NCBI GenBank assembly: GCA_001787755.1
Contig: MFYJ01000011.1
Location: forward strand, 62,001-126,000
Origin: Candidatus Peribacteria bacterium RIFOXYB1_FULL_54_35
GTDB taxonomy: Bacteria > Patescibacteriota > Gracilibacteria > Peribacterales > Peribacteraceae
Direction of reading: 5' to 3'
DNA: 64,000 nt
Below, piece after piece: positions 377 through 63,089 of the stretch. The notes under the pieces were generated by a model, which saw nothing but the letters and a program-made list of their open reading frames with translations, searched no databases and was not told where the DNA came from. Positions within the stretch are counted from its first letter, which is position 1; every line of letters starts with the position of its first letter. The translations under genes and the position numbers were made by a program.

Positions 377-1660
377 TTGTCCATGCATCTACACCTCCTT
401 CTACACTGAACGGACATTTGGGACCTTAGCAAATGATCTGGGCTCTTTCCCTTTCGACGATGGCGCTTTGCCGTCACCGTCTCACTCCCGTCTCCTAAGG
501 ATGGGTATTCGGAGTTTGCCAGGATTTGGCAGGTCGAGGTGACCCCCGCATCCAAACAGTAGCTCTACCCCCCATCTTGCGAGACGAGGCTGCCCCTAAA
601 GGCATTTCGAGGAGAACCAGCTATCTCCGGGTTCGATAGGCTTTTCACCCCTACCCACAGGTCATCCCTAAGTCTTGTGACACTTAATGGTTCGGGCCTC
701 CAGACGTCTTCCGACGCCCTTCACCCTGCCCATGGGTAGCTCACCCGGTTTCGGGTCTAGTGCCAGCGACTATGTACGCCTTATTTAAGACTCGCTTTCG
801 CTCTGGCTCCGGCTAACTCTGCCTTAACCAGCCACTGACAACTAACTCGTTGGCTCATTATGCAAAAGGCACGCGGTCACCCCGCAACAAGTGCAGGGCT
901 CCCACTCCTTGAACGCAATACATTTCAGGGTCTATTTCATCCCCCTTCCGGGGTACTTTTCACCGTTCCCTCGCGGTACTATTCACTATAGATCTCTGTA
1001 CCTGTTTAGGCTTGGGTAGTGGTCCACCCAGATTCAGGCCGGATTTCACGTGTCCGACCCTACTCAGGGACACCCTACCGTGTTTCTACATTTCGGCTAC
1101 GGGGCTCTCACCCACTTTGGCCGCCCGTTCCAGGGTCGTTCGTCTATGCAGAAACAATCGGATATTGGGGCCCTACAACCCCCCACCAATAAAACAGTGG
1201 GGTTTGGCCTGTTCCCATTTCGCTCGCCACTACTTTGGGAATCTCTATTGATTTCTTTTCCTCTGCTACTGAGATGTTTCAGTTGTCAGAGTAACCTCCC
1301 TGTACCTTACGGTTCAGGGTCATCTCCCATAACGGAGATGGAGTTTCCTCATTCGGAAATCCCCGGCTATAGCGCCTGCCTAGCGGCTTACCGAGGCTTA
1401 TCGCAGCTGGCCACGTCCTTCTTCGGAGTACAGAGTCGAGGCATCCATGTAATGCGTATGAGTAACGTTTTTTCTTGCCCTGAAGTCATGCAAAGCATGT
1501 GCTTCGGGGCTTCCTACCACACAGTACGTGCTTGCGCACGGCTGCGTGATTAACTGTTCACGTGTCACCGAGCGGGCAGGACATGCTCACACGGCAACCG
1601 TGAAAAAAAATTGCAATATACTTTCATCTTCAGTGCCTGTGCTGTGAAGGATCACACGCT

Positions 1661-1707
1661 TTCACCCTTCGATGTGCTCGCCTTTTGGGCTCGCTTACTC
1701 AGGGTTA
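1661..1707. repeat. Short CPR-type repeat (CACCCTTCGA...CTCAGGGT family)
   Basis: The segment starts TTTCACCCTTCGA and ends CTCAGGGT. It belongs to the same family as the TTCGACAAGCTCAGG-type repeats seen at 13252-13302, 35265-35305, 40856-40900, 41043-41068 and 41256-41301. It lies in the spacer between 23S rRNA and ssb. Confidence 0.5.
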
Positions 1708-1746
1708 TCTCAGTTTCGGCTCGCTACGCTCGCACGTCACTGAGAT

Positions 1747-1827
1747 AAAAAAAGCGGGTGGCTCACGCACACCCGCAGAATCCGGTTCCTTTCTCCCTCT
1801 TTAGGAGAAATTCGATTCCTGCGGGTG
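1747..1827 (-). terminator. Terminator hairpin with a competing upstream hairpin (attenuator-like)
   Basis: On the minus strand three copies of a 7-base word follow each other: CACCCGC (1827-1821), GCGGGTG (1776-1770) and CACCCGC (1760-1754), then seven U residues (1753-1747). The middle segment can pair with the third to give a U-tailed intrinsic terminator. It can also pair with the first as part of a much longer hairpin (CACCCGCAGGAATC against GATTCTGCGGGTG). The two folds exclude each other. The element lies 3' of ssb and before the 23S gene. Confidence 0.6.
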
Positions 1828-1923
1828 GGCACGAGAACACATAGAGCCTACAGATTGTAATGAGACTCTCTCAGGAATCAAGTGGAAAAAGGCACCTCGC
1901 AGTAAAATTGCCGACTTTTTTTT

Positions 1924-2343
1924 CTATGACTCAGGCACGTCCTCAGAAGGCGCTGATGCATCGCTTCCCTGCGGCACATCGCCCGACGCAACTGGATCCC
2001 CTTCAAGATCACTTTTGGGGCCCAGGAGAATGATGTTCTCCACCACGATTTCGGTACGGAAGATTTTCGTCCCTTCGCCACTATCCCAACTCCGCGTCTT
2101 TAAATACCCCTCAACGAAAAGCGGCTTCCCCTTGCGTATATACTGCCCTGTAAACTCTGCCAAACCCCCCCATGCCACAAGATTGTGGTACTCAGGCAGG
2201 CTCTTTTTCTCCCCCTCGCTACCACGCCAAACCCTGTTGGTCGCAAGACCGAATGTCGCAACGGTCTGACCACCTGTTGTGCTCTTGAGTTCAGGATCCC
2301 GCGTGACGTTTCCAAGCAGAGTGACCCTATTCACAGATTTCAT
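1924..2343 (-). CDS. ssb: Single-stranded DNA-binding protein
   Basis: The 139-residue product binds single-stranded DNA during replication, repair and recombination. It begins MKSVNRVTLLGNVTRDPEL, the typical SSB OB-fold opening, and continues with the conserved TVATFGLATN strand, the YHNLVAWGGLAE segment and GKPLFVEGYLKTRSW. The C-terminal tail is acidic and serine-rich as in other SSBs, but ends SEDVPES rather than with the usual D-D-D-I-P-F tip, which is the docking site for partner proteins. An upstream in-frame GTG at 2385 would add 14 residues that do not look like SSB, so the ATG at 2343 is preferred. It lies downstream of rpoB and upstream of 23S rRNA on the same strand. Confidence 0.9.
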   Translation of the reverse strand: MKSVNRVTLLGNVTRDPELKSTTGGQTVATFGLATNRVWRGSEGEKKSLPEYHNLVAWGGLAEFTGQYIRKGKPLFVEGYLKTRSWDSGEGTKIFRTEIVVENIILLGPKSDLEGDPVASGDVPQGSDASAPSEDVPES

Positions 2344-2410
2344 AACAACGACGGAAATTGCACAAGTATCATAAAGTGATCGCACGCGGGATGCCAGTAA
2401 TTAGCGCATG

Positions 2411-2463
2411 GCGTATAGCTGCTAGCGGGTAGTCCGTCCTACTCGCTGCTAACCGCTATACGC
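2411..2463. repeat. Imperfect palindrome between rpoB and ssb
   Basis: Outer arms GCGTATAGC and GCTATACGC pair perfectly, with further inner pairing (AGCG/CGCT and GTAG/CTAC) around the loop. There is no U-run, so it is a hairpin or processing site rather than a classical terminator. Confidence 0.6.
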
Positions 2464-2480
2464 TAATCGCTAAACGCTCA

Positions 2481-5400
2481 TTAGGCTGCTTCCATGGCAT
2501 CTTCACTTACGGATTCCGCCATCTCCTCTTTCGCCGTAGCTCCGGAAGCCCCCACCCGTTTTCCCCCCTCTATGCCTCCCTGTACCTCCTCGGCACTCTC
2601 TGCACCTATTTCACCCATTTCGGCTATTTTGTCCTCCGGTGGCACTATTTCTTCCGCCTCCTCTTCCGCCTTCACACGGGAAGCAAGTTCCACTTCCTCT
2701 ACTTCCTCCTCCTCAACAGTTACACGCTCCTCGGCAACAACATCATCCTTAAACTTCAGAAGATCCACCTTCAGACCCAATGCCTGCAATTCCTTCACAA
2801 GCACATTGAATGACTCCGGAATGGAGGGGCGGCGGATGGGTTCATCTTTCACAATGGATTCATACGCCTTGCTGCGCCCAATGACATCGTCGGATTTGAT
2901 GGTGAGCATTTCCTGCAACGTGTGGGCCGCTCCATATGCTTCCAATGCCCAAACCTCCATCTCTCCGAAGCGCTGTCCACCATGCTGCGCTTTCCCGCCC
3001 AGTGGCTGCTGCGTGACAAGAGAGTACGGTCCCACGCTTCTCGCGTGGATCTTGTCCTCCACAAGGTGCAAAAGCTTGAGCATGTACACCTGTCCGACAG
3101 TAGTTTTATGGGCGAAAGGCTCCCCTGTGCGGCCGTCAAACAGCTGCACTTTCCCATCGCGAGGAAGGCTGGCTGCCTCGAGGAAATCTCCAATCTGAGT
3201 GGTCGTTATGCCATTGAGCGGCGGCGTCGCAATCTTGATGCCCAGAACCTGGCAAGCCCAGCCGAGGTGCGTTTCCAGCACCTGACCGATGTTCATACGG
3301 GAGGTGACGCCAAGGGGGTTCAAAATGACATCCACCGGCGTACCATCCTCGAGAAATGGCATGTCTTCCTGGGGCACGATGCGGGAAATGACTCCTTTGT
3401 TCCCGTGGCGGCCAGCCATCTTATCTCCTACCTGGACTTTGCGCGTCTGTGCCACAAACACCTTGATCTGCTTGATGACGCCGGTAGGGAGCTCATCGCC
3501 CTCTGCCCGGTCAAAAATATGCACATCTACCACTTTTCCACCCGCTCCGCCGGGGAGGCGCAGCGAGCTGTCTTTCACATCCTTTGCTTTATCTCCAAAA
3601 ATCGCCTGCAGGAGACGCTCCTCAGGTGTGAGTTCTGTCTCCCCCTTCGGAGTAATTTTCCCAACGAGAATATCTCCTTCATGGACTGTAGCACCGATGC
3701 GTACGATGCCATCGAGATCCAGATCTTTGAGCTTGCTCTCTCCAACATTCGGGATATCGCGCGTCATGGTTTCGGGACCGAGCTTAGTATCGCGCACATC
3801 AGTGGTATACGACTCAATATGAATGGAATCGTAGAGCCCCTTCTGCGCGACACGGTCGGAGATGATGATGGCATCCTCGAAGTTGTACCCCTGCCAGGAC
3901 ATGTACGCTACAAGCAAATTCTGCCCCAGTGCGAGTTCGCCGTTATCGACAGAGGCACCATCTCCGAGACTGTCCCCTCTCCGCACTTTGTCTCCGCGGC
4001 GCACGCGCGGGCGGACGTTGAAACACGTTCCCTGATTACTGCGCACAAATGAACTGAGACGGTAGGTGTTTTTGCGTCCGGATTTGTAGACAACAGAAAT
4101 CTCATTGCTATCCGCGTAAGTGATTTCTCCGTCCTCCTCAGCGAGAAGAGCATGGCCCGATGCGCGTGCTGCAAGTCCTTCTACCCCCGTGCCGACCAGC
4201 GGTGCGTGCGGCAAGACGAGGGGAACAGCCTGGCGTTGCATGTTCGTGCCCATAGAAGCACGCGTATTGTCATCGTGCTCGAGGAATGGAATGAGAGCTG
4301 TGGAGAGTGAGAGAATCTGCTTTGGAGATACGTCTACATGCGTGATGTCACGCGCGTGAGAGAATACGGGCTCCCCGCTCTTACGGGCGGAGACGCGTGT
4401 CGTCGTAATCTCATGCATCTCTGTGAGAACGTTCTGTGCCTGTGCAATCGTAAGGTGCCGTTCCCGCTCTGCATCGACATATTCCATCTTGCCCGTAAGG
4501 TATGCGCGGACGGGGATCTCTTTTGCCCCTTCTTTCTTCAGAAGAGAAATAATTTTCCGCGCCGTTTCCTTCTTATCCACCACCTCACCCGCTCTCGCAA
4601 TCACGTTCCTGCCATCTCTCACATCTTCACCCATCATACGACCCATGAGCTTCTCGGCGTCGAAAGGAACTGTTTGCTTTACCTCCCGGTACGGCGTCTC
4701 AAGGAAGCCGTACTCGTTCACGCGTGCATATCCTGCCAAGTGCACCACCAGACCGATATTCGGCCCTTCAGGTGTTGCAATAGGACAAATGCGCCCGAAG
4801 TGGCTTGGGTGCACATCTCGCACATCAAAGCTGGCACGCTCCCTGGAAAGACCACCCGGACCCATGGCAGAGAGCCTGCGCTTGTGTGCAAGCTCCGAGA
4901 GAGGATTCGTCTGATCCATGAACTGTGAGAGCTGCGAGGAGGCAAAGAACTCACGCATAGCTGCCGTAATCGGGCGACAGTTGATGAGTTGCATCGGTGT
5001 CACCGTCTCCTGGTCCATCACTGTCATGCGGTCCTTCACAATGCGCTCTGTCCGCACCAACCCCACACGATACTTGTTCTGCACCAGCTCACCGACGCTC
5101 CGTACGCGCCGGTTGCTCAGGTGATCAATGTCATCGGCGATACCCTCACCATTATTGAGGAGAATAAGCTCACGGAGAATCCCCACAAAATCCTGCACCT
5201 GGAAAACACGGTGATCCTCATCGCTCGGGAGGTTCAGGCCGAAGCGGCGGTTAAGCTTGTACCGGGCAATAGACCCCATGTCGTACTTCTTGAAATCGAA
5301 GAAAAGCCCGTCGATAAGCTGCTTCGCGTTCTCAGGCGTTGCCAGATCCCCCGGACGGATGCGCCGGTAAATACTCTGATAGGCATCTTCAACAGTCCGC

Positions 5401-8635: not shown

Positions 8636-11600
8636 TTAGCTCTGGTAGCTGGTGGACTTCACAGTCGCCTCTGGGTACTCAACCCACGTGAAGTTCGTTG
8701 TGGTTGTATCCACATCTGACCACTCGACATAGCTCGTAGCGGCAGCTGTGCCCACGTTGAAGCTCGTGCGGGTAATAGAGTTAAACCTCGTCAGAGAGAC
8801 CTGGAGCGTGCTCACGGCACCGACCGTGGAGTTGCTTGGGTCGGTCACGTTGGCCTCAAGAACGAGCGTGATGTCGTCACCCTGGTTGATTTCCGTGTCG
8901 ATGAGGGTGTTCGACTTCAGCTGAGGACAGTACACCGTGAAGGTGCCGGAGGCTGTGCCTGCCATAACGGTCGTGCCGTTGTAGCCGGTACAGGCAACCT
9001 TGTTGGCATCACTGGAGTTGTCCTTGTTGTAGATCTTGAAGGTGCTTGCATCAAGGGAGACATTCGTCGCATTCACATTGAAGACAACGCCCGAGAGCAC
9101 TGCATCATTCAGACCGTTCTTGGAGTTTCCGTGTGCAGCGGCAGCAAACTTAAATGCTCCGATGTCAGATACGTCGGCCGGAACGGCGGAGCCGTTCGCA
9201 TCCTGGCTTGCGTTGGTGATCGAAGTGAGCTTCGCAAGGACAGAGACGTTCTTGTTGCCGGTAATATCGGTGTTCGCAGCTGCAGCGGAGGAAAGGCCAA
9301 TGAAGACCTCGCCAATAGCTGAGGTATCTCCGTCGTTCGCAATGAGGTTGTTGCTGGACTCGTCTCCGCGTGCGCGGATGGCACCGGAACCGGTGGACTC
9401 GTCAGAAACAGCCTGCTTGGCGATGAAGAACCAGACTGTCTGGTTGGATGAACCACCATTCACGTCATTCTTCATCTTCGGGCGGACGAGGACATCCATG
9501 TCATCGCCCTCCGGAACAACGAGCTGGCGGCTCTCCATGTTGGCACAGAACGCCTGGGTCATGTCGATGGTCGAACCGGAAGACACACCCGTGTTCTGCG
9601 TCAGGACATCATCGTTTCCGCATCCACCGACGGTCGCAAGCGCGAACGGAGTGGACTCACCAGCCTTGTAGAGTTCAAGGCGGTCTACGGAGTTGGCGAG
9701 AGAACCGGAAGAGTTGATCTGGATATCCGTCACATCGACTGCCTCATTCTCTGCATGGAACTGCATGCGGAGCACCGGCTCACCGAGAACGCCACCAAGG
9801 AGCTGGCGGTTGGTGAGTGGCGTGGAGTCCTTCGTGACGAAGAGATCTCCCTGGGCTACGAGTGCCCAGAGCTGGGACTCGACAGTCGTGACGGTAATGT
9901 CGCAGGACGTATTCGTACCGTCATGACAGGTGCCTGCGGTGTATGCAGCGCCGGCGATAGAACCTCCGTTCACGAGAATATTCGAGAGGTTGCTGCCGTC
10001 ATCGAGTTCTTCTGCCTCCAGGAAGGTGACAGTGGTACCCGTGGCGAACTGCACCAGCAGGTCATCGTTTGTCAGTGAGGAGGCAATATCGCCATGTACT
10101 TCGAAGATCACTGTCTCTTCAGCCGGGATGACGTAACCGCCGCCTGCGAGATCGGAGAATGGAATCTGGGAAGACTGGGATGCCACACCGTCCTCAAGGA
10201 TGGTATCGACGACACCATCACCGTCGGTGTCTACCCACAGAGCGTAGTTGCTCGCATTCAGCAGAGAACCCGACTGGGCCTCAAGTGTTGCCTTGGTGAA
10301 GAGAATATCCTCGGCCTCACCTGCGCGTGCCTCGAAGCGGAAGAGGTTAACGTTCTTCGCGTTCTCCACAGCAGTGTCACCCGTGCCCAGTGCCTTGACG
10401 GCAATGGTGAGGGTGGCTGCGGAAATCCGGTGGAAGTTACCGGCAATGTTGCCGCGCGGGCGGACATCACCGACCTTGTCACCGGTGGAGAGACCTTCGA
10501 CCTGCATATGGTAGGCAGTGCTTGCAGTAGCAAGCAAGTCGCCGAAGTTGCAGGTTGTCGTGTTGGAAACAAGCGCGCCGCCACTCAGGATGTGCGTCGG
10601 CTCGCCGCAGATGTGGATGCGGAACTTGTCACCACTCTGAGGCTTGTTGCCGGATCCGTTGTCGATGAAGTCGACACGGAACTCCCAGGTTTCGCTGCCC
10701 TTGACGATGAAATCATCAAACCGGTAAATCTGGAACGTACCATAGTTGGTACCAGCTTGCCTCTGGCCACTGTCGGACGTGCCTGTCAGGCGTACGCCGT
10801 CGATCGTGCGGCCGGTGGTCTTGTTGCGGACTTCCACATCCTCGAGCACTTCGTGGATCTGGTCGTAGCTGTTTGTAGTGAGATTGCTCAGGGCATCGCC
10901 CGTGGAGGTCTGCGCCTGGATAGCAATGAAGAGGTCCTTCACGTCGACATCTTCGCCACCCGTCTGGAACTCGATGTTCCCGAGAACGGCGTCGTTGTCA
11001 TCACGTGTGTAGTCCTGCGTTGCAGGACCATCGATACCGAGAGTGAATTCTCCGGCATCGATCGTCACGGTGTCAGGCAGGGTGGCAGTCTCGGTGGGCA
11101 GGGCAATCTGCGAACCGTACAACTGGCCGTTGACGCCGTAACCGTAGAGGGAACCGACAGCAAAGAGGTCGGAGCTCTCCTCAAAGTGCATGATCATGGA
11201 ATCAGCTGCACCGCCGACGATATCGGCAATAATTTCAAGCGTGATCTTGTCACCCTCGAGAATGGTGAACGGAGGATCGAAGACGACCGTCACGAAGTCA
11301 CCAACTGTCTGGGAGACAGTGTTCGTGAGAACAGTGCCGTCTGTGCGGCGCACTGCAATGTTCACGAAATCCCCATCGGAAGCAGAGCTGTTCTGCTCCA
11401 ATGTCATGGAGTAGAACGTCTGGTCCTCCGTGGAGTTCACTGCTACTTCAAACTTACCAATGACCACTCCTACATCACCCACTTCCACCTCATCGGGGGA
11501 AACGGTGCGGTAGGTGAGAGTCACAATACCACTGGTCACAGCAGCGAGACGGAACGTGCTGCCGCGGACAGGGAAGTTCCCACTGACATCCTTCGCATTT

Positions 11601-12952
11601 CCGAAGACATCGGACGGGAGCTCAATAACCATATTGTGCTCTGCGGATGTCGCGGAAGTGGAAGAGAAGTCAGCAACAACATCTACTGTCACTGTCTCAC
11701 AGGGGTCAAGAACAAGCGGAGAGGAGAAGCGCAGATCGGAGGTCTGATCCTCGGAGTCGATGGTGCGCTTGCGGGTCACACGTGCGCCATTGATGGCGGC
11801 GTAGATACCGTCGACATCTGTTACGGCACCGAAACCTTCATGCAAAACAGTCAGGTTCTCGATTTTGACAGAATCATCGCAGGAAGCGGTGAAATCGGCA
11901 GAAAGCATCACCACGCCTACTGCACCCTTCGGCACAGTGTCGCCCACCGGGCTGCTGGCGGAGAGTGATACCTCGAGCTCGCCTTCGCCCTGCTCAAATG
12001 CAGTGTAGCCAAGGAAGCTCATAGCATCATCGAAGACAACGCCATCTGCTGTCATAAGATCGGTCACGGCAATCGTGTACTCATGACCTGGGTCCATCGC
12101 CTCGCCGAGCGTGAGCTCAACGACGGTGGCACCAAGCAGTTCAACAGCACTCACTGGCACCTCTGGAGAGCCTGTCACCGCGTAATTGGCGACTTCCTCA
12201 GCTGAGGCTTCATCGAGTGAAACATTGAACTCGAGTTCAACGGTTGTGGCGGATGTTGCGACGGCATCGGTGAGCATAGGCTCAGCGCTGACGTCTTCAT
12301 CACCACAGTCGACACCGTACTGCATGCCCTGGTCGACGCGGTAAAGCATCACCACCATTTCTGCACGGTTCATGTTGTCGCCTGGGCGAACACGACCGGT
12401 GCGGTCATCACCCTGCAGCACGCAGTGATCTGCGGCTGTCTGGATGACGTCGGTGTACCACTGGCCAGCAGGGTTATCGACGAACTGAGGCGCATCGCCG
12501 GTCGACTCAAGTCCGAAAGAGCGGACAATGAGGGCGGCAGCCTCTGCGCGATTGATGTTCGCGCCTGGACGGGCGTAGCACGGGCTACTGCCGTAGCAGT
12601 TGCCGTCACCACGTACCCATCCTTCTTTACCGGCTTCTTCGAAGTACCCGTAGTACCACGCGCCGGTTGGCACATCGTTAAAGCTCGGGACGGCTGGCGG
12701 GGTGGAGAGAATTCCACCATTCAGCTCGACCACAAGCTTGACGAACTCCGCACGGTTGGCAGGATCGCCACCGCGGAAGCGTGCCTGTGTGGAATCGAGG
12801 TAGCCTGCATCGACAAAAGCGCCGACGGCATCCTCGTACCACACTCCTGCAGGAACGTCGCTGTACGCAGCAAGCACGGTCCCCACTTGGGTGAGGGTGA
12901 GAGCTGCAACGGACATTCCGGCAAGGACTTTCTTCAAACGAGAAAGGTCCAT
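8636..12952 (-). CDS. SLH-domain surface-layer-like protein, secreted
   Basis: The 1438-residue protein starts MDLSRLKKVLAGMSVAALTL, a signal peptide with likely cleavage after VLA. Three S-layer homology domains follow (about residues 28-210). Each has the pattern F-D-V/SDVP...WY...A...G.......F.G...NRAE, for example YSDVPAGVWYEDAVGAF, GANINRAEAAALIVRSFG and GDNMNRAEMVVMLYRVD. The remaining 1200 residues are threonine/serine/valine-rich beta-sandwich-like repeats, beginning with an Ig-like unit (TSATTVELEFNVSLDEAS). SLH domains usually bind pyruvylated cell-wall polymers in monoderm cells, so this is a candidate S-layer or major surface protein. The start at 12952 is chosen because the upstream in-frame extension lacks signal-peptide character. 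A 624-residue antisense reading frame inside it is a coding shadow. Confidence 0.9.
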   Translation of the reverse strand: MDLSRLKKVLAGMSVAALTLTQVGTVLAAYSDVPAGVWYEDAVGAFVDAGYLDSTQARFRGGDPANRAEFVKLVVELNGGILSTPPAVPSFNDVPTGAWYYGYFEEAGKEGWVRGDGNCYGSSPCYARPGANINRAEAAALIVRSFGLESTGDAPQFVDNPAGQWYTDVIQTAADHCVLQGDDRTGRVRPGDNMNRAEMVVMLYRVDQGMQYGVDCGDEDVSAEPMLTDAVATSATTVELEFNVSLDEASAEEVANYAVTGSPEVPVSAVELLGATVVELTLGEAMDPGHEYTIAVTDLMTADGVVFDDAMSFLGYTAFEQGEGELEVSLSASSPVGDTVPKGAVGVVMLSADFTASCDDSVKIENLTVLHEGFGAVTDVDGIYAAINGARVTRKRTIDSEDQTSDLRFSSPLVLDPCETVTVDVVADFSSTSATSAEHNMVIELPSDVFGNAKDVSGNFPVRGSTFRLAAVTSGIVTLTYRTVSPDEVEVGDVGVVIGKFEVAVNSTEDQTFYSMTLEQNSSASDGDFVNIAVRRTDGTVLTNTVSQTVGDFVTVVFDPPFTILEGDKITLEIIADIVGGAADSMIMHFEESSDLFAVGSLYGYGVNGQLYGSQIALPTETATLPDTVTIDAGEFTLGIDGPATQDYTRDDNDAVLGNIEFQTGGEDVDVKDLFIAIQAQTSTGDALSNLTTNSYDQIHEVLEDVEVRNKTTGRTIDGVRLTGTSDSGQRQAGTNYGTFQIYRFDDFIVKGSETWEFRVDFIDNGSGNKPQSGDKFRIHICGEPTHILSGGALVSNTTTCNFGDLLATASTAYHMQVEGLSTGDKVGDVRPRGNIAGNFHRISAATLTIAVKALGTGDTAVENAKNVNLFRFEARAGEAEDILFTKATLEAQSGSLLNASNYALWVDTDGDGVVDTILEDGVASQSSQIPFSDLAGGGYVIPAEETVIFEVHGDIASSLTNDDLLVQFATGTTVTFLEAEELDDGSNLSNILVNGGSIAGAAYTAGTCHDGTNTSCDITVTTVESQLWALVAQGDLFVTKDSTPLTNRQLLGGVLGEPVLRMQFHAENEAVDVTDIQINSSGSLANSVDRLELYKAGESTPFALATVGGCGNDDVLTQNTGVSSGSTIDMTQAFCANMESRQLVVPEGDDMDVLVRPKMKNDVNGGSSNQTVWFFIAKQAVSDESTGSGAIRARGDESSNNLIANDGDTSAIGEVFIGLSSAAAANTDITGNKNVSVLAKLTSITNASQDANGSAVPADVSDIGAFKFAAAAHGNSKNGLNDAVLSGVVFNVNATNVSLDASTFKIYNKDNSSDANKVACTGYNGTTVMAGTASGTFTVYCPQLKSNTLIDTEINQGDDITLVLEANVTDPSNSTVGAVSTLQVSLTRFNSITRTSFNVGTAAATSYVEWSDVDTTTTNFTWVEYPEATVKSTSYQS

Positions 12953-13113
12953 AGGAATGAAGGGATGAAAAGAAATAAAAACAAGGTTAGAAAAAGAATT
13001 CTTTTTGTAGCTTTGTAGAGGAAAGAGCTTCTGCTCTGCCCATCCCGGCACTCTCGCGTGAGAGGCGAGTGTGATTCCACGTGGGAATCCTTCACTCCTC
13101 TCCTTATATATAA
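12953..13113 (-). promoter_or_regulatory. Structured 5' leader of the surface-layer gene
   Basis: Upstream of the ATG lie two stable hairpins: GATTCC/GGAATC around CACGTG (13073-13089), and CACTC..CTCTC/GAGAG..GAGTG (13050-13072). Further upstream is the AT-rich palindrome TTATATATAA (13104-13113), a possible -10 region. The last 50 bases before the ATG are pyrimidine-rich with no Shine-Dalgarno. A long, folded leader suggests an mRNA stabilised for high expression (inference). Confidence 0.45.
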
Positions 13114-25231: not shown

Positions 25232-25385
25232 GTAGGGATCCGTCGTCGGGCTTGAGCAAAGAAACATGTAAGCCTCCGATGTGGTAGGCTCTGAATATTA
25301 TTATAATATATATTTTATTAAAAATAAGTACCTCCGCAGCAAGAAAATCTGGTTCCAATTTGCATTTTCTCGTAAAAGGCCGAGA

Positions 25386-26561
25386 ATGAATTATCCCACT
25401 CGTATGGCATCAAAGACCACCAGCGGGAAGAAAGACACGCAGGGACTCCAGTACCAGCGCTGGATCAGTTTTCTCACATGTGTACGTGACACTCCCCAGA
25501 ACCAGGACCTGCTCTTGCAGTACTTTCTGGAACAGTTTCTGGGTGCGCCGGAACTGTTCTACGAGTTTCTCTTCACTCTGCAGAAAAAGCTGGAACTCGG
25601 CAGGAAGAAAACTGTGAAGGAACAACTAGCGCGGGAGTACCTGCGGGTACTCTCCCCGCTCTGTGAGCGCTTCGGCATGTTCGAGGAGAAAGAAACTCTC
25701 GACCACCTTTGTTTCCGCATTGCATACCCCACAGCATACCGGGAGGTGGAGCAGGTGCTCTCGAAGTATCAAAAGACTGCCGAACATACCATTCAGAAAA
25801 TTCTGCGCATACTGCGTACCCTGCTGAAGAAGGAGCACTTCACCTGCACAGTGAAAGGGCGCTACAAGAACGTCTACAGCATCTACCAGAAAATGCAGAA
25901 AAAGAGGTATGTAAGCCCTATTGCCCTCAACGACATCTTCGCTTTCCGCATCATCGTGAAAAGCAACGATGCAGAGAAGTGCTTTGAGATCATTAATCTC
26001 CTCCATGACTATTTCCATCCGAGTGTGGACCGGTTTAAAGACTACATCTCTGTGCCCAAGGTCAACGGGTACCAGAGCATCCACACAACCCTGCGCGGTG
26101 TCATACCGGATTTCGATCTCCCCGTAGAAATACAGGTACGCACAGAGATGATGGATGGCTTCGCGGATCGGGGAATAGCCTCCCACTGGATTTACAGCCG
26201 GAACAAAAAAACCAGCCTCCTCACGGAGCCGGAGCGGAAGCTCCTCGATCACTACACATCACTCTCGGAGAGATTACAACAGGAGAGGAACGTGTACTTC
26301 TTCTCATTTGAAGGTGACATCAATAAGCTCCCCGAAGGATCCAGCGTGCTCGACTTCGCGTACCGGATCCATACGGAAATCGGTAACCATGCAGAGGCTG
26401 CCCTGGTGAACGGGGAAGAGCAACCCGTACACTACCGTATCAACGAGGGAGACCGTATCCGCATACTGACAGCAGAGAGTCTTCAGGTCAGTGGACAGAG
26501 GCTCTCCTGCGTTCATACTTCTCTTGCCCGCCGAAAGATCCATGAATACGCAGAACCCTGA
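25386..26561 (+). CDS. RelA/SpoT-family (p)ppGpp synthetase lacking the hydrolase domain
   Basis: The 391-residue protein should make (p)ppGpp. The synthetase motifs are complete: GRYKNVYSIYQKMQ, LNDIFAFRIIV (catalytic Asp), the DYISVPKVNGYQSIHTTLRG loop, and VEIQVRTEMMDGFADRGIASHW. A TGS domain follows (YFFSFEGDINKLPEGSSVLD to GDRIRIL). The N-terminal 60-70 residues carry no HD-x-x-H hydrolase motif, and there is no C-terminal ACT domain, so it is shorter than bifunctional Rel (about 700 residues). The start is placed at MNYPTRMASK; ATG at 25404 is an alternative. It overlaps the PAS-GAF gene by 20 bases, suggesting coupled translation. Confidence 0.9.
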   Translation: MNYPTRMASKTTSGKKDTQGLQYQRWISFLTCVRDTPQNQDLLLQYFLEQFLGAPELFYEFLFTLQKKLELGRKKTVKEQLAREYLRVLSPLCERFGMFEEKETLDHLCFRIAYPTAYREVEQVLSKYQKTAEHTIQKILRILRTLLKKEHFTCTVKGRYKNVYSIYQKMQKKRYVSPIALNDIFAFRIIVKSNDAEKCFEIINLLHDYFHPSVDRFKDYISVPKVNGYQSIHTTLRGVIPDFDLPVEIQVRTEMMDGFADRGIASHWIYSRNKKTSLLTEPERKLLDHYTSLSERLQQERNVYFFSFEGDINKLPEGSSVLDFAYRIHTEIGNHAEAALVNGEEQPVHYRINEGDRIRILTAESLQVSGQRLSCVHTSLARRKIHEYAEP

Positions 26562-28164
26562 CACCCTCTACCGCAAGCTCGTCGAGAACATGAACGAGGC
26601 CGTCTGGATGGGAGACGAGCAGGAGCGCACAGTGTACGCAAACCCCAAATTCTGCGAACTCATGGAGATGACACTGGAGGAGATGCTGGGGAAGCAGTCG
26701 TATGAGTTCTGGGATGAGGATAGCGCGAAAAGGGTACGGCAGGTGAATAGTACGGACCGGAAACGAGGCATCAGTTCCAGCTACGAGGGAACGCTTGTTT
26801 CCAAGAGCGGAAAGCGCACACCTGTGCTGCTCAGCGGCACCCCCCTTCCCGGTGGGGGGACGATTGGAATCATGACGGATCTCACGGCCCTCAAGAAACA
26901 GGAATCTATGTACCGCAAGCTCGTCGAGAACATGAACGAGGCCGTCTGGATGGGAGACGAGCAGGAGCGCACGGTGTATGCAAACCCCAAGTTCTGCGAA
27001 CTCATGGAGATGACACTGGAGGAGATGCTGGGAAAGCAGTCGTATGAGTTCTGGGACAAAGAGAGCGCCAAGAAGGTGCGCCAGGTGAATAGTACGGACC
27101 GGAAACGAGGCATCAGTTCCTGCTACGAGGGAACGCTTGTCTCAAAGAGCGGAAAACGCACACCCGTACTGCTCAGCGGTACCCCCCTCCCCAGCGGGGG
27201 GACGATCGGGATGATGACCGATCTCCGTGAACTCAAAAAAAAGGAGGAGAAGGAGCGCGTGCTCTCCAGTGCCATCATGTATGGAACAGATGCTGTGCTC
27301 TCCGTAGACAAGAAAGGAAATATTCAATCGTGGAACAAGGGTGCAAAAATGATCTTCGGGTACAGCCAGAACGAGATTGAGGAAAAACCCCTCAGTACTA
27401 TTTTCAGTACGGAGGACTACGAACCACTCCTTTCAAAAAGTAATATCCAGTACAACATTGAACTGACAGGAAAGCACAAAAACGCACAGGACACAGTGGT
27501 GAGCGTCACGGTCTGTCCCATTATCCATAGTGAGGAGAAAATTCCTTCTGCATTCATCCTCATTGCAAGAGATATCACCGCACAGCGGAAATTTGAGGAG
27601 GAGGTGATGCTGAAGTACCAGAAGATCCGCGACGCATACAACAAGTTTGGAATTATCCGGAGGCAGATGGACTACATTTTCGATCTCACGCTCCTCTACG
27701 CAAGCACGCACGATGCCAAAGCTCTCGGGGATTTCATTGTAAACTCCGTCATCATGCTCTCCCGTGCCGATGCGTGCACTCTCCGCCTCCATGATAGAGA
27801 GAAAGGGAACCTCGGGCTGCTCGCTTCGTTTGGAGTGACAGGAGATTGGCTCGGAAAATCCATCGTGAAGTACAAAGACAGCCTGGTGGAGAAAGCCTAC
27901 GAACAGGGTGCCCCCATTAAAGTGATCGATATTATGAAGGAACCGAAGTATTCCTCTCCTCATCTCGCGAAGAAGCACAACTTCTGTTCCGTGCTGATCA
28001 TTCCTCTCACATTCCGCGGTGAACTCATAGGGGGGCTCTCGCTGTATGTTTCCCCGCAAAAAAAACTGGAGCTCTTCGAGAACGACTTCATAGAGAAGTA
28101 CGCTCTGCTCATTGGCATTGTACTGCATTCATCGCGACCGCCTGCCCCATCCGCGTCGGTATAA
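26542..28164 (+). CDS. Triple-PAS, GAF sensor protein without an output domain
   Basis: The 540-residue soluble protein has two almost identical N-terminal PAS domains (about residues 10-122 and 124-236). Each opens YRKLVENMNEAVWMGDEQER and includes the KFCELMEMTLEEMLGKQSYEF helix. A third, different PAS (LSSAIMYGTDAVLSVDKKGN to ARDITAQRKFEEE, about 245-355) and a C-terminal GAF domain (about 375-530, with LGDFIVNSVIMLSRADACTL and VLIIPLTFRGELIGGLSLY) follow. No histidine-kinase, GGDEF or DNA-binding output is present, so signalling must be through a partner. Its start lies inside the end of the (p)ppGpp synthetase gene (20-base overlap), making that synthetase the obvious candidate partner (inference). 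The 3' end overlaps a convergent gene by 36 bases. Confidence 0.88.
   Translation: MNTQNPDTLYRKLVENMNEAVWMGDEQERTVYANPKFCELMEMTLEEMLGKQSYEFWDEDSAKRVRQVNSTDRKRGISSSYEGTLVSKSGKRTPVLLSGTPLPGGGTIGIMTDLTALKKQESMYRKLVENMNEAVWMGDEQERTVYANPKFCELMEMTLEEMLGKQSYEFWDKESAKKVRQVNSTDRKRGISSCYEGTLVSKSGKRTPVLLSGTPLPSGGTIGMMTDLRELKKKEEKERVLSSAIMYGTDAVLSVDKKGNIQSWNKGAKMIFGYSQNEIEEKPLSTIFSTEDYEPLLSKSNIQYNIELTGKHKNAQDTVVSVTVCPIIHSEEKIPSAFILIARDITAQRKFEEEVMLKYQKIRDAYNKFGIIRRQMDYIFDLTLLYASTHDAKALGDFIVNSVIMLSRADACTLRLHDREKGNLGLLASFGVTGDWLGKSIVKYKDSLVEKAYEQGAPIKVIDIMKEPKYSSPHLAKKHNFCSVLIIPLTFRGELIGGLSLYVSPQKKLELFENDFIEKYALLIGIVLHSSRPPAPSASV
26569..27252 (+). repeat. Tandem 342-bp direct repeat (PAS domain duplication)
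   Basis: Two 342-base units (26569-26910 and 26911-27252) encode the two N-terminal PAS domains with 114 codons each. They are nearly identical at DNA level over most of their length, with mainly scattered single-base differences, so the duplication is recent or kept uniform by gene conversion. Confidence 0.9.
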
Positions 28165-31100
28165 TTCTTCCTTGTTCCTCCCGCCCTTCCAAGGTCTGCC
28201 ATGGATGGGAATATCCGCGGAAAGCCCAAGGAGCGCGTTTGTGAGAATGTGCTCTCCCGCATTTTCTTGTATGTGTCCATCCGTCTCGGCCCACATTGTC
28301 CGTAGACGTTTTGTCCCCACATTGTACGTCTTCATGATGTCCTCTCCCTGCTTATCCACTTCGCCCATGATGCGGTCTCTGTCCCTCTCAGTCACAAGAT
28401 CCACTTCGGGATGCGTCTGCATGCTGTACGCTTTTCCCTGATATAGATCACACATGATGGGAAGGCCGGTAAGCTCACTGAGGGCAACAGGGCGTACGTA
28501 CCTCTGTCCATTCCCCTGAACATTGTCTAATCCGTCCACATGCCTGCCATGCGTGTTCATGAGTGTGAACCGGGAAGGGCAGTCCCGGAAGAGGGGATGC
28601 CTCGTATCTCTCACATGTACCGGCGTGGGACAGAATTCCAGCGCACCGGGCCCGGAGCGCACCTCCGGCAACTGCCCCCTGTGCGCTTCTCCGATAAGAT
28701 CCATCATATTCTGGTGCCCGAAACAGATGAAGAGCCCTCTCGCTGGCGATCCTTGGGTCGCAAGAGCGCTGTGGATCAGCTTGCCGTACGTCTGCTGAAA
28801 GAACTGGCCGTACGGATCGTCGGGATTAAACCAGCTCCCGCCCACGATGAAGATGACACCCTTCTTCGAAAGTTCATGAAGCCTCTCTTCGTTCTGCCTC
28901 TGAAAATGCGTCACAAGATGATCTATGCCCCTCTCGGGCTCAAAACGGATACTGATGTTCGCAACGGACTCACCGTAGCACTCCTCGCCCACAATGCGGC
29001 GCACTTCTCTCTCGAGGAAGAGATTCGTTCCGCAGTCCTGGAAGAGAATGAGCTGGATCGGAGCACTCCCCGTCATGAGCCGTATCTGCTGCAGATTCTC
29101 TCGTACCTGCCTTATTTTTGCGCCCTCGAGTGCCTGCATCTCCACAGTGCCGAATTCATGGTTTGTCGCGAGCCTCGCGATCGGGAATTCGCTGTGCGCA
29201 TTGGTGCGTGTAATGGGATCTGCGATGCGCGGTGCAACATGGAGGTACCCCTGCCGGAACGTTTCAAGCCCTCTTCCCACCGTCACCGGCTCCTGCACGC
29301 CAATGAGCTGCCTGACTCTCTCTCGCAGATCCAGCCCCATGCGCACAATAATCTCGCGTACATCTCTTGTGGTGAGTAAGGGGTCCTCGCGAAGTTCTGC
29401 ATTCCCCGCGTGCTGGCACGCCTCTTGCTTCCACGCTGCGTACTCCTGATCTGTGAGGGAAACATCGGAAGGCCGCTCTCCATGCACCGCACGGCAAACC
29501 CGCGCAGATAAAGCATGAAAGAGTTCGCTTTCATACTTCTGACGCACTTCTGCGGGGGCATCCTTTCCCACACCACAAGCCTCCATGAGGATATTTGAAA
29601 GCCCGAAGAAACTCTGCCCCTCTATCTTCTTTGGAGTCACTCTCAACGGGCAGCGGAGGTGCTCGCCATAGGAAGCCCCTGGGGCAAAAGAATCACCCAC
29701 CACCTCACACACCCTCTTCCGCGTGAGCTCGAGCAATCCCGGATCCACAAGATCGAGGTACCGTGCAAGGTTCGCCGTTGCCACCCGCCGGAGGCTGCGG
29801 TCCCTGTCATCACCAATATGCTGCTGGCAGTCTTTAAATGCCTGTGCGTTCCCTCCTGCAATGGCATCAATCTGGCGACGGATGACCCTCTCTACAAAAA
29901 GATCCGGACGCCTGCGCATCATGTGATCACACGGAACAAAGGAGACTTCTTCCTCGTTGAAAGGCATCGCAAGATCACTCTCACTAAGGTACCCACGCTC
30001 CGGATGTCTCCTCTGCACAAGAACGGAACGGGGAACGTGCGTTGCACGATCAACCACAAGCGTCACCCGGAAATCATCTCTCCCTTTGACCGCCCGCATA
30101 ATTTCCTCGAAGCGGTCTATGCGGGTGAAGGACTGGCGGTGTCCGTCTGTGAGGTACACGCCACCCGGCGCGAGAAGGTTCAGGGTGAGTCCCACATCCT
30201 CTTCGAATTCCCCGGGCGCATCTTCCAGATTGATGGTGAGTCCTGTGAACCCCTTGAGCGGCGTGGAAGGTTCATGGGAATCTGCACGGCTGGCAGAAAT
30301 GAGGAGACAGCTCTCAGAAGGTACCTGGCTGAGAGTTGAGGTAAAGCGGCCCGGAATGAACTGCCGGAAGTGCATCACCGGTCCGGATCGATTCAGGTCG
30401 ATGCGGACGCCTTTCTTCCGGTACTCCGGATCTTCGTACTGCTCATGCTCTGTAATTTCTGTTGCGAATGCATCTGTGAAGATTTCCTGGAGCTTCTCTG
30501 AGGCCGAGGCTGTCTGCTGGGCATGGTCTCTCACTTCCCCCTCCCTCTTCCTCGCTGCCTGGATCTGCCGCTTGAATCCTTGTGACTGCTCTTGGCACTC
30601 CTCTATCTCTTTCTCAACAGCATCCGCCAGCAGTGCATGTGTCCATCCCCCATCGGGAAGACTGGGATGCTCTGCAATGGCGGCAAAATCCGTAGCCAAT
30701 GTTTCTGTGTCCGCAGATGAGGAAGTTTGGGAAATCCTTGCCCGCAGTGTGTGGAGTCTCTGAACCCTCTTGTCTACTCCCTGTTTCAGATCGACGAGCT
30801 TCCTCGCAGGGGAGTCTTGCATCCGCCTCTGTCTGATCACTTCTTTCTCAGTGTTCAGTGTCTCCAGAATCTTTGCAGAGAGATCGGCCAAGGAAGAAAC
30901 ATCACGCAGCATGTGGCCGGTGATGAGCCAGAACTCATGGATAGAAGGTTCCAACGATTGTTCATCCCCCTTCCTCATGGCGGCAATGACCTTGCTGTGC
31001 AGCGCCTGCATCCTCTGGCACTGCGCTTGCGCGTAATCAACCTCGCAGTCTGCAAGCTGCACGATGTACTCCTGGGCAGCATGGGGAACCATGTCTACCC

Positions 31101-31959
31101 TATCGTCCTCAAATTCCTCCGAGGCCCTGTAGAGAGCCTTCATCATCTTCTTGTAGATGTTCGGCAGCCATTCCTGGGGGTGCGCGAGGAGCGGGAAAAT
31201 GTCATTGAGATCGCAGAGAAACCCCCTTGGCTGCCAGCGCTGAATGATGCCATTCTCATCGCTCACAGGCTCGAACCACCGCTCGTGCAGCGCACCCTGT
31301 AATGCCTGGGAAAGAGTGGCAATGATCTGACGCACTATGGGATCCCCTCTCCTCTCGGGACGAACGTACTGCAGAAGTACACTCTCGATCGTGAAGTACA
31401 ACCGGTCCCCCACACCCACTTCCTCCATGTGGCGAGATCCCGTACGGAGGTGGTGCATGAGCTGCCCATTCCCGGGCCCCTTATGCAGGTGGACTCTCGC
31501 GGGCTGGCGCACATGCGCTGGCGGTGCATACTGCTCAATGAGCAGCTCCTCCAGGAGTGCAGCCCCTCCTTCCCGGAGTCCCCACCGCTGCTCGGCTTCC
31601 GCCACCCTGTCCACTTTCCAGTCGCGGAAGGTGATGGGTATGGCAATGCCTGCAAGACAGAGGAGATTCGCCAGCTCCTGATATCTGCGTGCTCTCTCCT
31701 CGGTCTCTTCCTGCTCGTCTGTGCATTCGTTGTACTCACGGAATGTGGTCAAAATCCACTCCTGTACTGCTGCACACTCACTCGATGCTGTTGGGAGTGC
31801 TCCTATGGCAAAGAGGTGTTCCCGGCGTTCCTGGCTCTCCGGCCCGACGAGGAGGCTGAGCACTTCTTCCTGAAGAGCGGTGTCTGCCCGGGCAAGGAGT
31901 GCTTCTGCCCCCTCCGGAGCAGCGGAACCCCCATCGTTTCCTTCCGGAGACGTACGCAT
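28129..31959 (-). CDS. Giant protein: methyltransferase-like N-terminal part, long helical insert, class I glutamine amidotransferase domain
   Basis: I know of no named family for this 1276-residue protein. Near residue 158 is HKGPGNGQLMHHL, similar to the SAM-binding loop of methyltransferases. Residues about 200-540 are mainly charged helices. Around 570-640 the segment NLLAPGGVYLTDG followed by RFEEIMRAVKGRDDFRVTLV again recalls the later strands of a Rossmann methyltransferase. From about 1030 to 1200 there is a class I glutamine amidotransferase: nucleophile Cys near 1079 in GLFICFGHQ, MNTHGRHVDG, and His/Glu near 1183-1185 in MQTHPEVDL. No signal peptide or membrane helix is seen. A perfect -35 (TTGACA) with an almost leaderless start supports expression. 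Substrate is unknown; ammonia channelling or a non-catalytic role are both possible. Confidence 0.75.
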   Translation of the reverse strand: MRTSPEGNDGGSAAPEGAEALLARADTALQEEVLSLLVGPESQERREHLFAIGALPTASSECAAVQEWILTTFREYNECTDEQEETEERARRYQELANLLCLAGIAIPITFRDWKVDRVAEAEQRWGLREGGAALLEELLIEQYAPPAHVRQPARVHLHKGPGNGQLMHHLRTGSRHMEEVGVGDRLYFTIESVLLQYVRPERRGDPIVRQIIATLSQALQGALHERWFEPVSDENGIIQRWQPRGFLCDLNDIFPLLAHPQEWLPNIYKKMMKALYRASEEFEDDRVDMVPHAAQEYIVQLADCEVDYAQAQCQRMQALHSKVIAAMRKGDEQSLEPSIHEFWLITGHMLRDVSSLADLSAKILETLNTEKEVIRQRRMQDSPARKLVDLKQGVDKRVQRLHTLRARISQTSSSADTETLATDFAAIAEHPSLPDGGWTHALLADAVEKEIEECQEQSQGFKRQIQAARKREGEVRDHAQQTASASEKLQEIFTDAFATEITEHEQYEDPEYRKKGVRIDLNRSGPVMHFRQFIPGRFTSTLSQVPSESCLLISASRADSHEPSTPLKGFTGLTINLEDAPGEFEEDVGLTLNLLAPGGVYLTDGHRQSFTRIDRFEEIMRAVKGRDDFRVTLVVDRATHVPRSVLVQRRHPERGYLSESDLAMPFNEEEVSFVPCDHMMRRRPDLFVERVIRRQIDAIAGGNAQAFKDCQQHIGDDRDRSLRRVATANLARYLDLVDPGLLELTRKRVCEVVGDSFAPGASYGEHLRCPLRVTPKKIEGQSFFGLSNILMEACGVGKDAPAEVRQKYESELFHALSARVCRAVHGERPSDVSLTDQEYAAWKQEACQHAGNAELREDPLLTTRDVREIIVRMGLDLRERVRQLIGVQEPVTVGRGLETFRQGYLHVAPRIADPITRTNAHSEFPIARLATNHEFGTVEMQALEGAKIRQVRENLQQIRLMTGSAPIQLILFQDCGTNLFLEREVRRIVGEECYGESVANISIRFEPERGIDHLVTHFQRQNEERLHELSKKGVIFIVGGSWFNPDDPYGQFFQQTYGKLIHSALATQGSPARGLFICFGHQNMMDLIGEAHRGQLPEVRSGPGALEFCPTPVHVRDTRHPLFRDCPSRFTLMNTHGRHVDGLDNVQGNGQRYVRPVALSELTGLPIMCDLYQGKAYSMQTHPEVDLVTERDRDRIMGEVDKQGEDIMKTYNVGTKRLRTMWAETDGHIQENAGEHILTNALLGLSADIPIHGRPWKGGRNKEELYRRGWGRRSR

Positions 31960-31972
31960 AGTAAAGGGGATA

Positions 31973-32000
31973 TATATACTATTTATTGTGAATTTGTCAA
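31973..32000 (-). promoter_or_regulatory. Promoter of the giant GATase-domain gene
   Basis: On the minus strand TTGACA (32000-31995), 16-base AT-rich spacer and TATATA (31978-31973). The predicted start is about seven bases before the ATG at 31959. Confidence 0.65.
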
Positions 32001-61880: not shown

Positions 61881-63089
61881 TCATCCAAAGAAAAATGAAT
61901 ACGTCTGCAGGGCCATTACGGCTGCGGTCACGAGAAATCCTACGAAAGAAATTGCCATGCTGCCATAGCGCCCCGTCCGGCGGCACAACGTCGCGCAGGA
62001 GAGATTGATGAGGATGAACACGCAGAGGATGACGGCGCTCGTCGCCTGCGCAAGTTGGACGATTGGAAATGCGAGGGCGAGAATGAGAATAAGCACCACA
62101 ACGACGATCGTGGAGAACACCGGCGTCTGTGTCCGTGCATTGACCGCACTGAATACGGAAGGCAACCATCCTGCTTTGCTTAAGCCGTAGAACATGCGCG
62201 ACGCCATGATCATCTGCACCACGAGTCCGTTGAGCACCGCAAGGAGACCGATTGTCGTGATGAGGACGGGCTTTGCACCCGTGCTGTGCTCGTAGAGGAG
62301 CGCGAGCGGCGCGTCGCTCTGAGAGAGAACATCAGCCGGGAGTGTGAGCACGGCAAGCAGCGCGAGCATGCAGTACAGAATGGTGACTACCAAAATGGCA
62401 AGACCGATGGCGCGCGGCATGACATGCACGGGGTCTTTCACTTCTTCGGCGACGTTCACCATATCTTCAAATCCTATGAACGCGAAGAACGAGAGGAATG
62501 CGCCGGACAAAATCCCTTTCCAAACTGAAATGTCGGAAGAGGGGATCATCTCCGGGAACCGGGAGGGGAGCATCGCGATATTGTCCCACGTCACACCAAT
62601 GATGATGAGGAGCCCCACCACCTCCACCACTGTGACGACTGCGACTGCGAGGGCCGATTCTTTGATACCCCATATGGCGAGCAGCCCCATGAGAACAGTG
62701 ATGGTGATGATGATGACGGGAGCCGGCACGGAGAAGAACACCTGGAAGTACCCAACGAAGCCGTGGATGATGGCACCGGCGGAAATGATTCCGGCAACGG
62801 CGACCGACAGCCCGACAAGCAGGGAGAGCCACCGTACACCGAATGCCTCGAAAATGTACCGGGCTTCTCCGCTGCTCACCGGAAAGCGCGACGAGAGGAC
62901 GGCAAAGGAGTACCCCGTGAGAGCCGAGAGGACCGCAGAGACCAGAAACGCCACGGGCGTGTGCATGCCCGACATGCCGGCAACCTTGCCGATGAGTGCG
63001 TAGATGCCCGCCCCCATGATGGTGCCGACGCCGTAGAACACGAGGAGAGGCAGATTGAGGGAGCGGCGGAGAGTGGGGGTGGCGGGCAT
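61881..63089 (-). CDS. Amino-acid permease (APC superfamily)
   Basis: The 402-residue transporter has about twelve hydrophobic helices. The start, MPATPTLRRSLNLPLLVFYG followed by VGTIMGAGIYALIGKVAGMS, is the classical APC TM1 with the unwound G-x-G segment. Further family features are VAFLVSAVLSALTGYSFAVL, a conserved helix-6 region (SFFAFIGFEDMVNVAEEVKD, with F-x-G-F-E-x) and the later helices. It imports amino acids or polyamines; the substrate is not assignable. A longer upstream reading frame runs into a repeat element, so the start at 63089 is chosen. The gene is flanked on both sides by copies of the same inverted-repeat element in the same orientation. Confidence 0.9.
   Translation of the reverse strand: MPATPTLRRSLNLPLLVFYGVGTIMGAGIYALIGKVAGMSGMHTPVAFLVSAVLSALTGYSFAVLSSRFPVSSGEARYIFEAFGVRWLSLLVGLSVAVAGIISAGAIIHGFVGYFQVFFSVPAPVIIITITVLMGLLAIWGIKESALAVAVVTVVEVVGLLIIIGVTWDNIAMLPSRFPEMIPSSDISVWKGILSGAFLSFFAFIGFEDMVNVAEEVKDPVHVMPRAIGLAILVVTILYCMLALLAVLTLPADVLSQSDAPLALLYEHSTGAKPVLITTIGLLAVLNGLVVQMIMASRMFYGLSKAGWLPSVFSAVNARTQTPVFSTIVVVVLILILALAFPIVQLAQATSAVILCVFILINLSCATLCRRTGRYGSMAISFVGFLVTAAVMALQTYSFFFG

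Follow-up and report, generated by a model that had tools for sequence, protein, structure and literature searches.

A glutaminase and methyltransferase-like fusion protein encoded tail-to-tail with a PAS-GAF sensor gene in Peribacteria, a possible output enzyme of a sensory module

We analyzed a 64,000-nucleotide stretch of DNA (the window) from Candidatus Peribacteria bacterium RIFOXYB1_FULL_54_35, which corresponds to positions 62001–126000 of contig C11 in a genome of 1.56 Mb (G000). The gene under study occupies 28129–31959, as an earlier note on this DNA had correctly placed it, and lies on the minus strand with its ATG at 31959 and its stop codon at 28131–28129. It encodes a fusion protein of 1276 aa, in which a methyltransferase (MTase)-like domain in two halves is followed by a class I glutamine amidotransferase (GATase) domain. 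The gene, its parts and two neighboring genes are as follows.

25281–26561, plus strand: RelA/SpoT-type (p)ppGpp synthetase gene with a TGS domain (RSH), synthetase motifs intact
26491–28164, plus strand: PAS-PAS-PAS-GAF sensor gene, probable ATG at 26542, without a kinase or DNA-binding domain
28129–31959, minus strand: fusion gene (MTase-like N half, helical insert, MTase-like C half, linker, class I GATase)
31063–31662, minus strand: MTase-like N half, aa 100–299, with DWxVxR at 113–118 and the glycine loop G161/G163/G165; family profile E 3.1e-64
30415–31062, minus strand: helical insert, aa 300–515, differing in length between relatives and with a PAS domain inside it in locus L053
30001–30399, minus strand: MTase-like C half, aa 521–653, with R558..S561 H562, PGG at 598–600, D605, S610 and R616
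28387–29067, minus strand: class I GATase domain, aa 965–1191; PF00117 E 0.0018 alone
28723–28725, 28411–28413 and 28405–28407, minus strand: codons of the GATase triad Cys1079, His1183 and Glu1185, respectively
31973–32000, minus strand: promoter-like element read from the sequence, TTGACA at 32000–31995, 16 nt, TATATA at 31978–31973

The open reading frame (ORF) is real beyond chance, with relatives of 911–1437 aa in other families sharing its motifs in register. The TATATA hexamer ends 13 nt before the ATG, and this candidate element is plausible as the promoter that had been claimed for the gene; the pair of hexamers was not listed by an automatic promoter scan because the scan rule accepts only second hexamers that end in T. 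When the full-length protein was searched against Pfam, NCBIfam, PADLOC and PHROGs, only the GATase came near significance and no library model spanned the protein, in agreement with the previous view that no known family covers its full length. No paper on the fusion or its neighbors was found in the open-licence literature. The protein belongs to an undescribed family, in which the folds are known and the architecture and coupling are undescribed.

The only library domain in the fusion protein is the class I GATase, matched by Pfam at aa 1009–1191. The PF00117 score of the window protein was 18.4 bits alone against a gathering cut-off of 22.8, and 23.3 bits with neighbors in frame, and the cut-off was exceeded by six relatives. 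The catalytic triad reported near the C-terminus is intact, with Cys1079 in FICFGHQ and His1183 and Glu1185 in THPEV. Across 23 relatives, the catalytic columns held Cys in 22 and His and Glu in all 23, where the sole loss was a Gly in place of the Cys in G250 (L055), and the triad was preserved in both of the domain orders found in the family. The best structural match of the family GATase profile was the GATase of GMP synthase (2vpi, E 9.8e-7), and the profile aligned to the GATases of the same genome with 96% probability. The fusion protein shares the nucleophile elbow C-x-x-x-Q and the HPE triad with the GMP synthase GATase (PF00117), but its GATase is joined to an MTase-like domain instead of an ATP-pyrophosphatase or other synthase domain. 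An ATP-pyrophosphatase domain was not found in Pfam and NCBIfam scans of the protein, and the candidate of a GMP synthase variant was rejected because the synthase domain is absent. Neither a known synthase domain in the protein nor a conserved synthase neighbor was found, which leaves the MTase-like domain as the sole candidate to take the ammonia.

The SAM-loop-like segment that had been noticed previously (HKGPGNGQLMHHL) was located at aa 159–171 and the later strand pair (NLLAPGGVYLTDG) at about aa 594–606. We compared the two MTase-like halves separately as profiles with the methyltransferases of the same genome, for which unrelated control profiles gave E-values of 0.06 or worse. The N half aligned at motif I (E 1.3e-4) and the C half at the strand-4/strand-5 P-G-G region (E 2.8e-4), each in register with real methyltransferases, which argues for the split Rossmann domain proposed before. 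In Pfam, Methyltransf_25 (PF13649) matched one relative (L057, E 1.2e-5). The glycine-rich loop after strand 1 is present (G161, G163 and G165), and the columns that are invariant in 11 members of the family alignment (A2) include D113, R118, G161, G163, H562, G599, D605, S610 and R616. The acidic residue two positions before the glycine loop is missing in the window protein, which has His159 instead, and this makes methyl transfer by the fusion protein a putative activity. This motif I acid is Asp in all ten reversed-order members analyzed and in four others; several members with the domain order of the window have His, Asn or Val at this position. Compared with class I SAM methyltransferases, the family has the glycine loop and the P-G-G region in register, but its domain is split by a variable helical insert, the window protein has His in place of the motif I acid, and the motifs DWxVxR and RxxSH...DGxxxSxxxxxR are invariant features of its own. 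A PDB search with the MTase-like alignment returned methyltransferases only at E-values of 0.6–1.7, among unrelated matches. The mean pLDDT values of two single-sequence AlphaFold models, 39.5 and 43.3, were too low to search for similar folds; in one of the models, only helices at approximately aa 380–481 reached moderate to high pLDDT and the remainder was unusable.

Those helices belong to the stretch described earlier as several hundred helical residues between the two segments. The insert is real, with approximately 220 aa in the window protein, ∼530 aa in G045 and ∼20 aa in G250, and its variable length marks it as an elaboration rather than part of the core. The insert of G257 (L053) contains a PAS domain related to those of the partner sensor.

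Among the 59 relatives searched, two homologues of 1284 and 1437 aa were found, from two other families of the class. A three-protein profile run over 353 genomes of the class recovered further members, with many of the weakest matches being other GATases, and a profile of the C-terminal MTase-like half matched in 30 of the 353, although the two weakest matches (G244 and G186) are open to doubt. No family member was found in two genomes from the same genus as the window. In a sample of 380 genomes of the phylum, only two outside the class matched, and these weakly. One of these two matches is a 981-aa protein (L127 in G510, 560–3505 on the minus strand), in which a long unassigned region ends C-terminally in the two MTase-like halves and no GATase was matched, so the MTase-like family extends beyond the fusion. 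Two short-pattern contig scans beyond the phylum yielded no family member, and the same scans returned no member of the class either; two Bacteroidales matches from pattern scans aligned to the GATase only, at 28%. Phage and plasmid records had no match to the fusion protein, and a viral pattern scan likewise gave no family member. In the genomes searched, the family thus seems largely confined to one class and patchy there.

In the window, the RSH gene overlaps the PAS-GAF gene, whose 3' end in turn runs 36 bp into that of the convergent fusion gene. A PAS-GAF gene was adjacent and convergent in all of the 13 loci with the window's domain order, window included, where the 3' ends ranged from an overlap of 62 bp to a distance of 13 bp; these loci include one whose fusion gene is cut by a contig end (L049) and one whose fusion gene is split (L058). 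RSH precedes the sensor gene in 11 of the 13 and was not found next to L048 or L058. The GATase of L058 is a separate ORF with a possible ORF for the MTase-like N half nearby, a weak case of fission. Eight window genes were compared with ten related loci, and just three of them recurred (RSH, PAS-GAF and the fusion gene); the pairwise distances of these three proteins correlated over ten loci (Mantel p 0.0002, 0.0016 and 0.0011). A Fisher test of co-occurrence took no account of shared ancestry. The search of related genomes for the same fusion and its neighbors, advised in the earlier note, yielded relatives with a recurring sensor neighborhood. Identities across loci were 17–40% for the fusion protein, 47–66% for PAS-GAF and 36–54% for RSH, and the much faster divergence of the fusion protein fits either changing substrates or a conflict.

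The RSH protein resembles RelA/SpoT alarmone synthetases in its TGS domain and its synthetase motifs (GRYKNVYSIYQK, DIFAFR, NGYQSIH and EIQVRT), but differs from them in that no HD hydrolase domain was matched in Pfam and that its gene is paired with a PAS-GAF gene. A toxic small alarmone synthetase was rejected for this gene, which encodes a longer synthetase and TGS protein with canonical motifs. With a subfamily-specific GAF profile, this type of PAS-GAF protein was found in 19 genomes at E-values below 1e-70, 13 of which have the fusion gene. In G151, G195, G150, G207, G176 and G027, RSH lies beside PAS-GAF with no fusion gene on the sequence available, and RSH and PAS-GAF therefore form a self-standing pair to which the fusion gene is an optional third. 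The fusion gene with the window's domain order was not seen without the PAS-GAF gene. No paper on the RSH/PAS-GAF pairing was found in the open-licence literature.

The pair itself (25281–28164 in the window; L175–L180) is a candidate sensor-controlled alarmone synthetase. The PAS-GAF gene contains a recent tandem duplication, in which two 300-nt copies (26552–26851 and 26894–27193) are 90% identical and 342 nt apart, and the number of PAS domains varies between relatives. In 11 of the 13 loci, the PAS-GAF and fusion genes overlap at their 3' ends (28129–28164 in the window), which leaves no space for a terminator between them; antisense regulation is possible. Four genes with a RelA_SpoT domain were found in the 1.56 Mb genome (on contigs C12, C7, C11 and C13; L097–L100), seemingly many for its size. 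Membership of the fusion gene in an ATP synthase operon was rejected, as the gene is divergent from atpD; the readable stretches beside atpD in G004, G006 and G014 had no fusion or PAS-GAF gene, and atpD is on a different contig in G194. In G034 (C11, 44527–45817), atpD matches lie in two adjacent frames (query 3–290 and 308–454), perhaps by a frameshift or an assembly error. Elsewhere in the window, a 1471-aa ORF (8636–13051, minus strand) has an N-terminal part that by eye resembles SLH-type repeats, and is a candidate surface-layer protein.

Some relatives in the class have genes with many in-frame TGA codons that are read as sense, as in genetic code 25, which would fit a placement of the window genome among Patescibacteria of the Gracilibacteria type. 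Such TGA-reading relatives mostly have the reversed order of a GATase followed by an uninterrupted MTase-like domain in approximately 780–900 aa, with the exception of G147 (L046), which has the window's order. Four reversed-order loci (L054, L062, L064 and L102) adjoin a PAS-HisKA-HATPase kinase and a stand-alone receiver, and another four (L063 and L103–L105) adjoin a TrmB-like regulator with no PAS partner in the stretch available; Pfam scans covered two each of the kinases, receivers and regulators among these neighbors, and the others are homologous to them by BLAST. The MTase-like proteins of L059–L061 lack the GATase and carry an N-terminally fused receiver domain, which in L060 was just under the Pfam cut-off, and a PAS histidine kinase is encoded by the adjacent gene. 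From this arrangement, receivers seem able to act on the enzyme family, and the PAS insert of L053 points to the same ability for PAS domains. Response regulators with enzymatic output domains are known, following CheB-like logic. L059–L061 are similar to these in combining a receiver and an MTase-like protein beside a PAS histidine kinase, but the window protein lacks a receiver, its partner lacks a kinase, and as far as Pfam shows the window protein is unrelated in sequence to CheB and CheR.

We estimate a probability of about one half that the fusion protein serves a sensory module as its output enzyme and is not a housekeeping synthase. This reading is based on the convergent PAS-GAF gene in 13 of 13 loci, RSH in 11 of 13 and the correlated protein distances, together with the kinase and receiver neighbors of reversed-order members, the receiver fusion of L059–L061, the PAS insert of L053 and the GATase triad kept in both domain orders. 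The GATase fold and triad, the two MTase-like halves, the neighborhood and its variants are established by the data. The PAS/GAF sensor would detect a cue and, in the lineage of the window, would act on the fusion protein through physical contact, for which the helical insert is a possible site, and/or via the alarmone synthetase; the control by PAS/GAF and its route by contact are what we infer, and adjacency of the genes is no proof of contact. In sister lineages, this role would fall to a PAS histidine kinase paired with a stand-alone receiver, or to a receiver fused to the MTase-like domain. Once switched on, the GATase domain would hydrolyze glutamine and hand the ammonia to the adjoining Rossmann (SAM-type) domain, which would then modify a substrate; ammonia transfer to the MTase-like site, with SAM as co-substrate, is our guess. 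Rather unlikely is the more specific version of a sensor-gated enzyme that uses glutamine-derived ammonia and a SAM-type active site to make or modify a signal molecule, possibly with the RSH alarmone, in which the kinase/receiver and PAS-GAF/alarmone arrangements would be versions of the same switch. The TrmB-like loci without a PAS partner, the His in motif I, the single Cys loss and the missing RSH at 2 of 13 loci count against an output enzyme.

The main rival, which we consider somewhat unlikely, denies the MTase-like domain an enzymatic role and makes it a platform that senses SAM or nucleotides, beside a GATase that acts by itself as a glutaminase or gamma-glutamyl hydrolase; the protein would then read nitrogen and one-carbon status for the alarmone module. 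The His, Asn or Val at the motif I acid in several members of the window's order would suit such a platform, as would the receiver-fused members without a GATase, in which the two domains can be uncoupled; however, the glycine loop and the R/S/H, D, S and R columns are invariant or nearly so, suggesting an active site, and the fusion of the GATase in two different orders suggests coupling.

Two further readings, biosynthesis and conflict, have a lower probability. The protein might be an ordinary enzyme of biosynthesis, an amidotransferase/methyltransferase acting on a nucleobase, sugar or RNA base, whose gene just happens to lie near sensor genes; this would agree with the usual role of class I GATases in feeding a synthase and with the GATases of GMP synthase being the closest solved ones. 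We regard this as improbable, as sensors and not a synthase or biosynthetic partner are conserved beside the fusion gene, and the presence is patchy, in 30 of 353 class genomes and in neither of the two same-genus genomes. From the enzyme proposed in the earlier note, the MTase-like domain and the class I GATase were retained, whereas the plain biosynthetic amidotransferase was abandoned as the main story, given the sensors and signaling proteins as conserved partners and the members L059–L061 without a GATase. The patchy distribution and the faster divergence of the fusion protein than of PAS-GAF and RSH would also suit a conflict (defense) cassette made of a sensor, an alarmone synthetase and a fast-evolving large effector. 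This is very improbable, given that PADLOC returned only two weak matches to a coiled-coil stretch (E 0.025 and 0.15), phage and plasmid records gave none, and the RSH motifs look canonical.

Very small bacterial genomes keep few large genes, and their signaling is poorly known. A sensor-associated enzyme of 1276 aa, which different families retain with two domain orders and in more than one signaling context, points to an undescribed output reaction, and the occurrence of the RSH/PAS-GAF pair also without the fusion gene poses the question of direct PAS/GAF control of alarmone synthesis.
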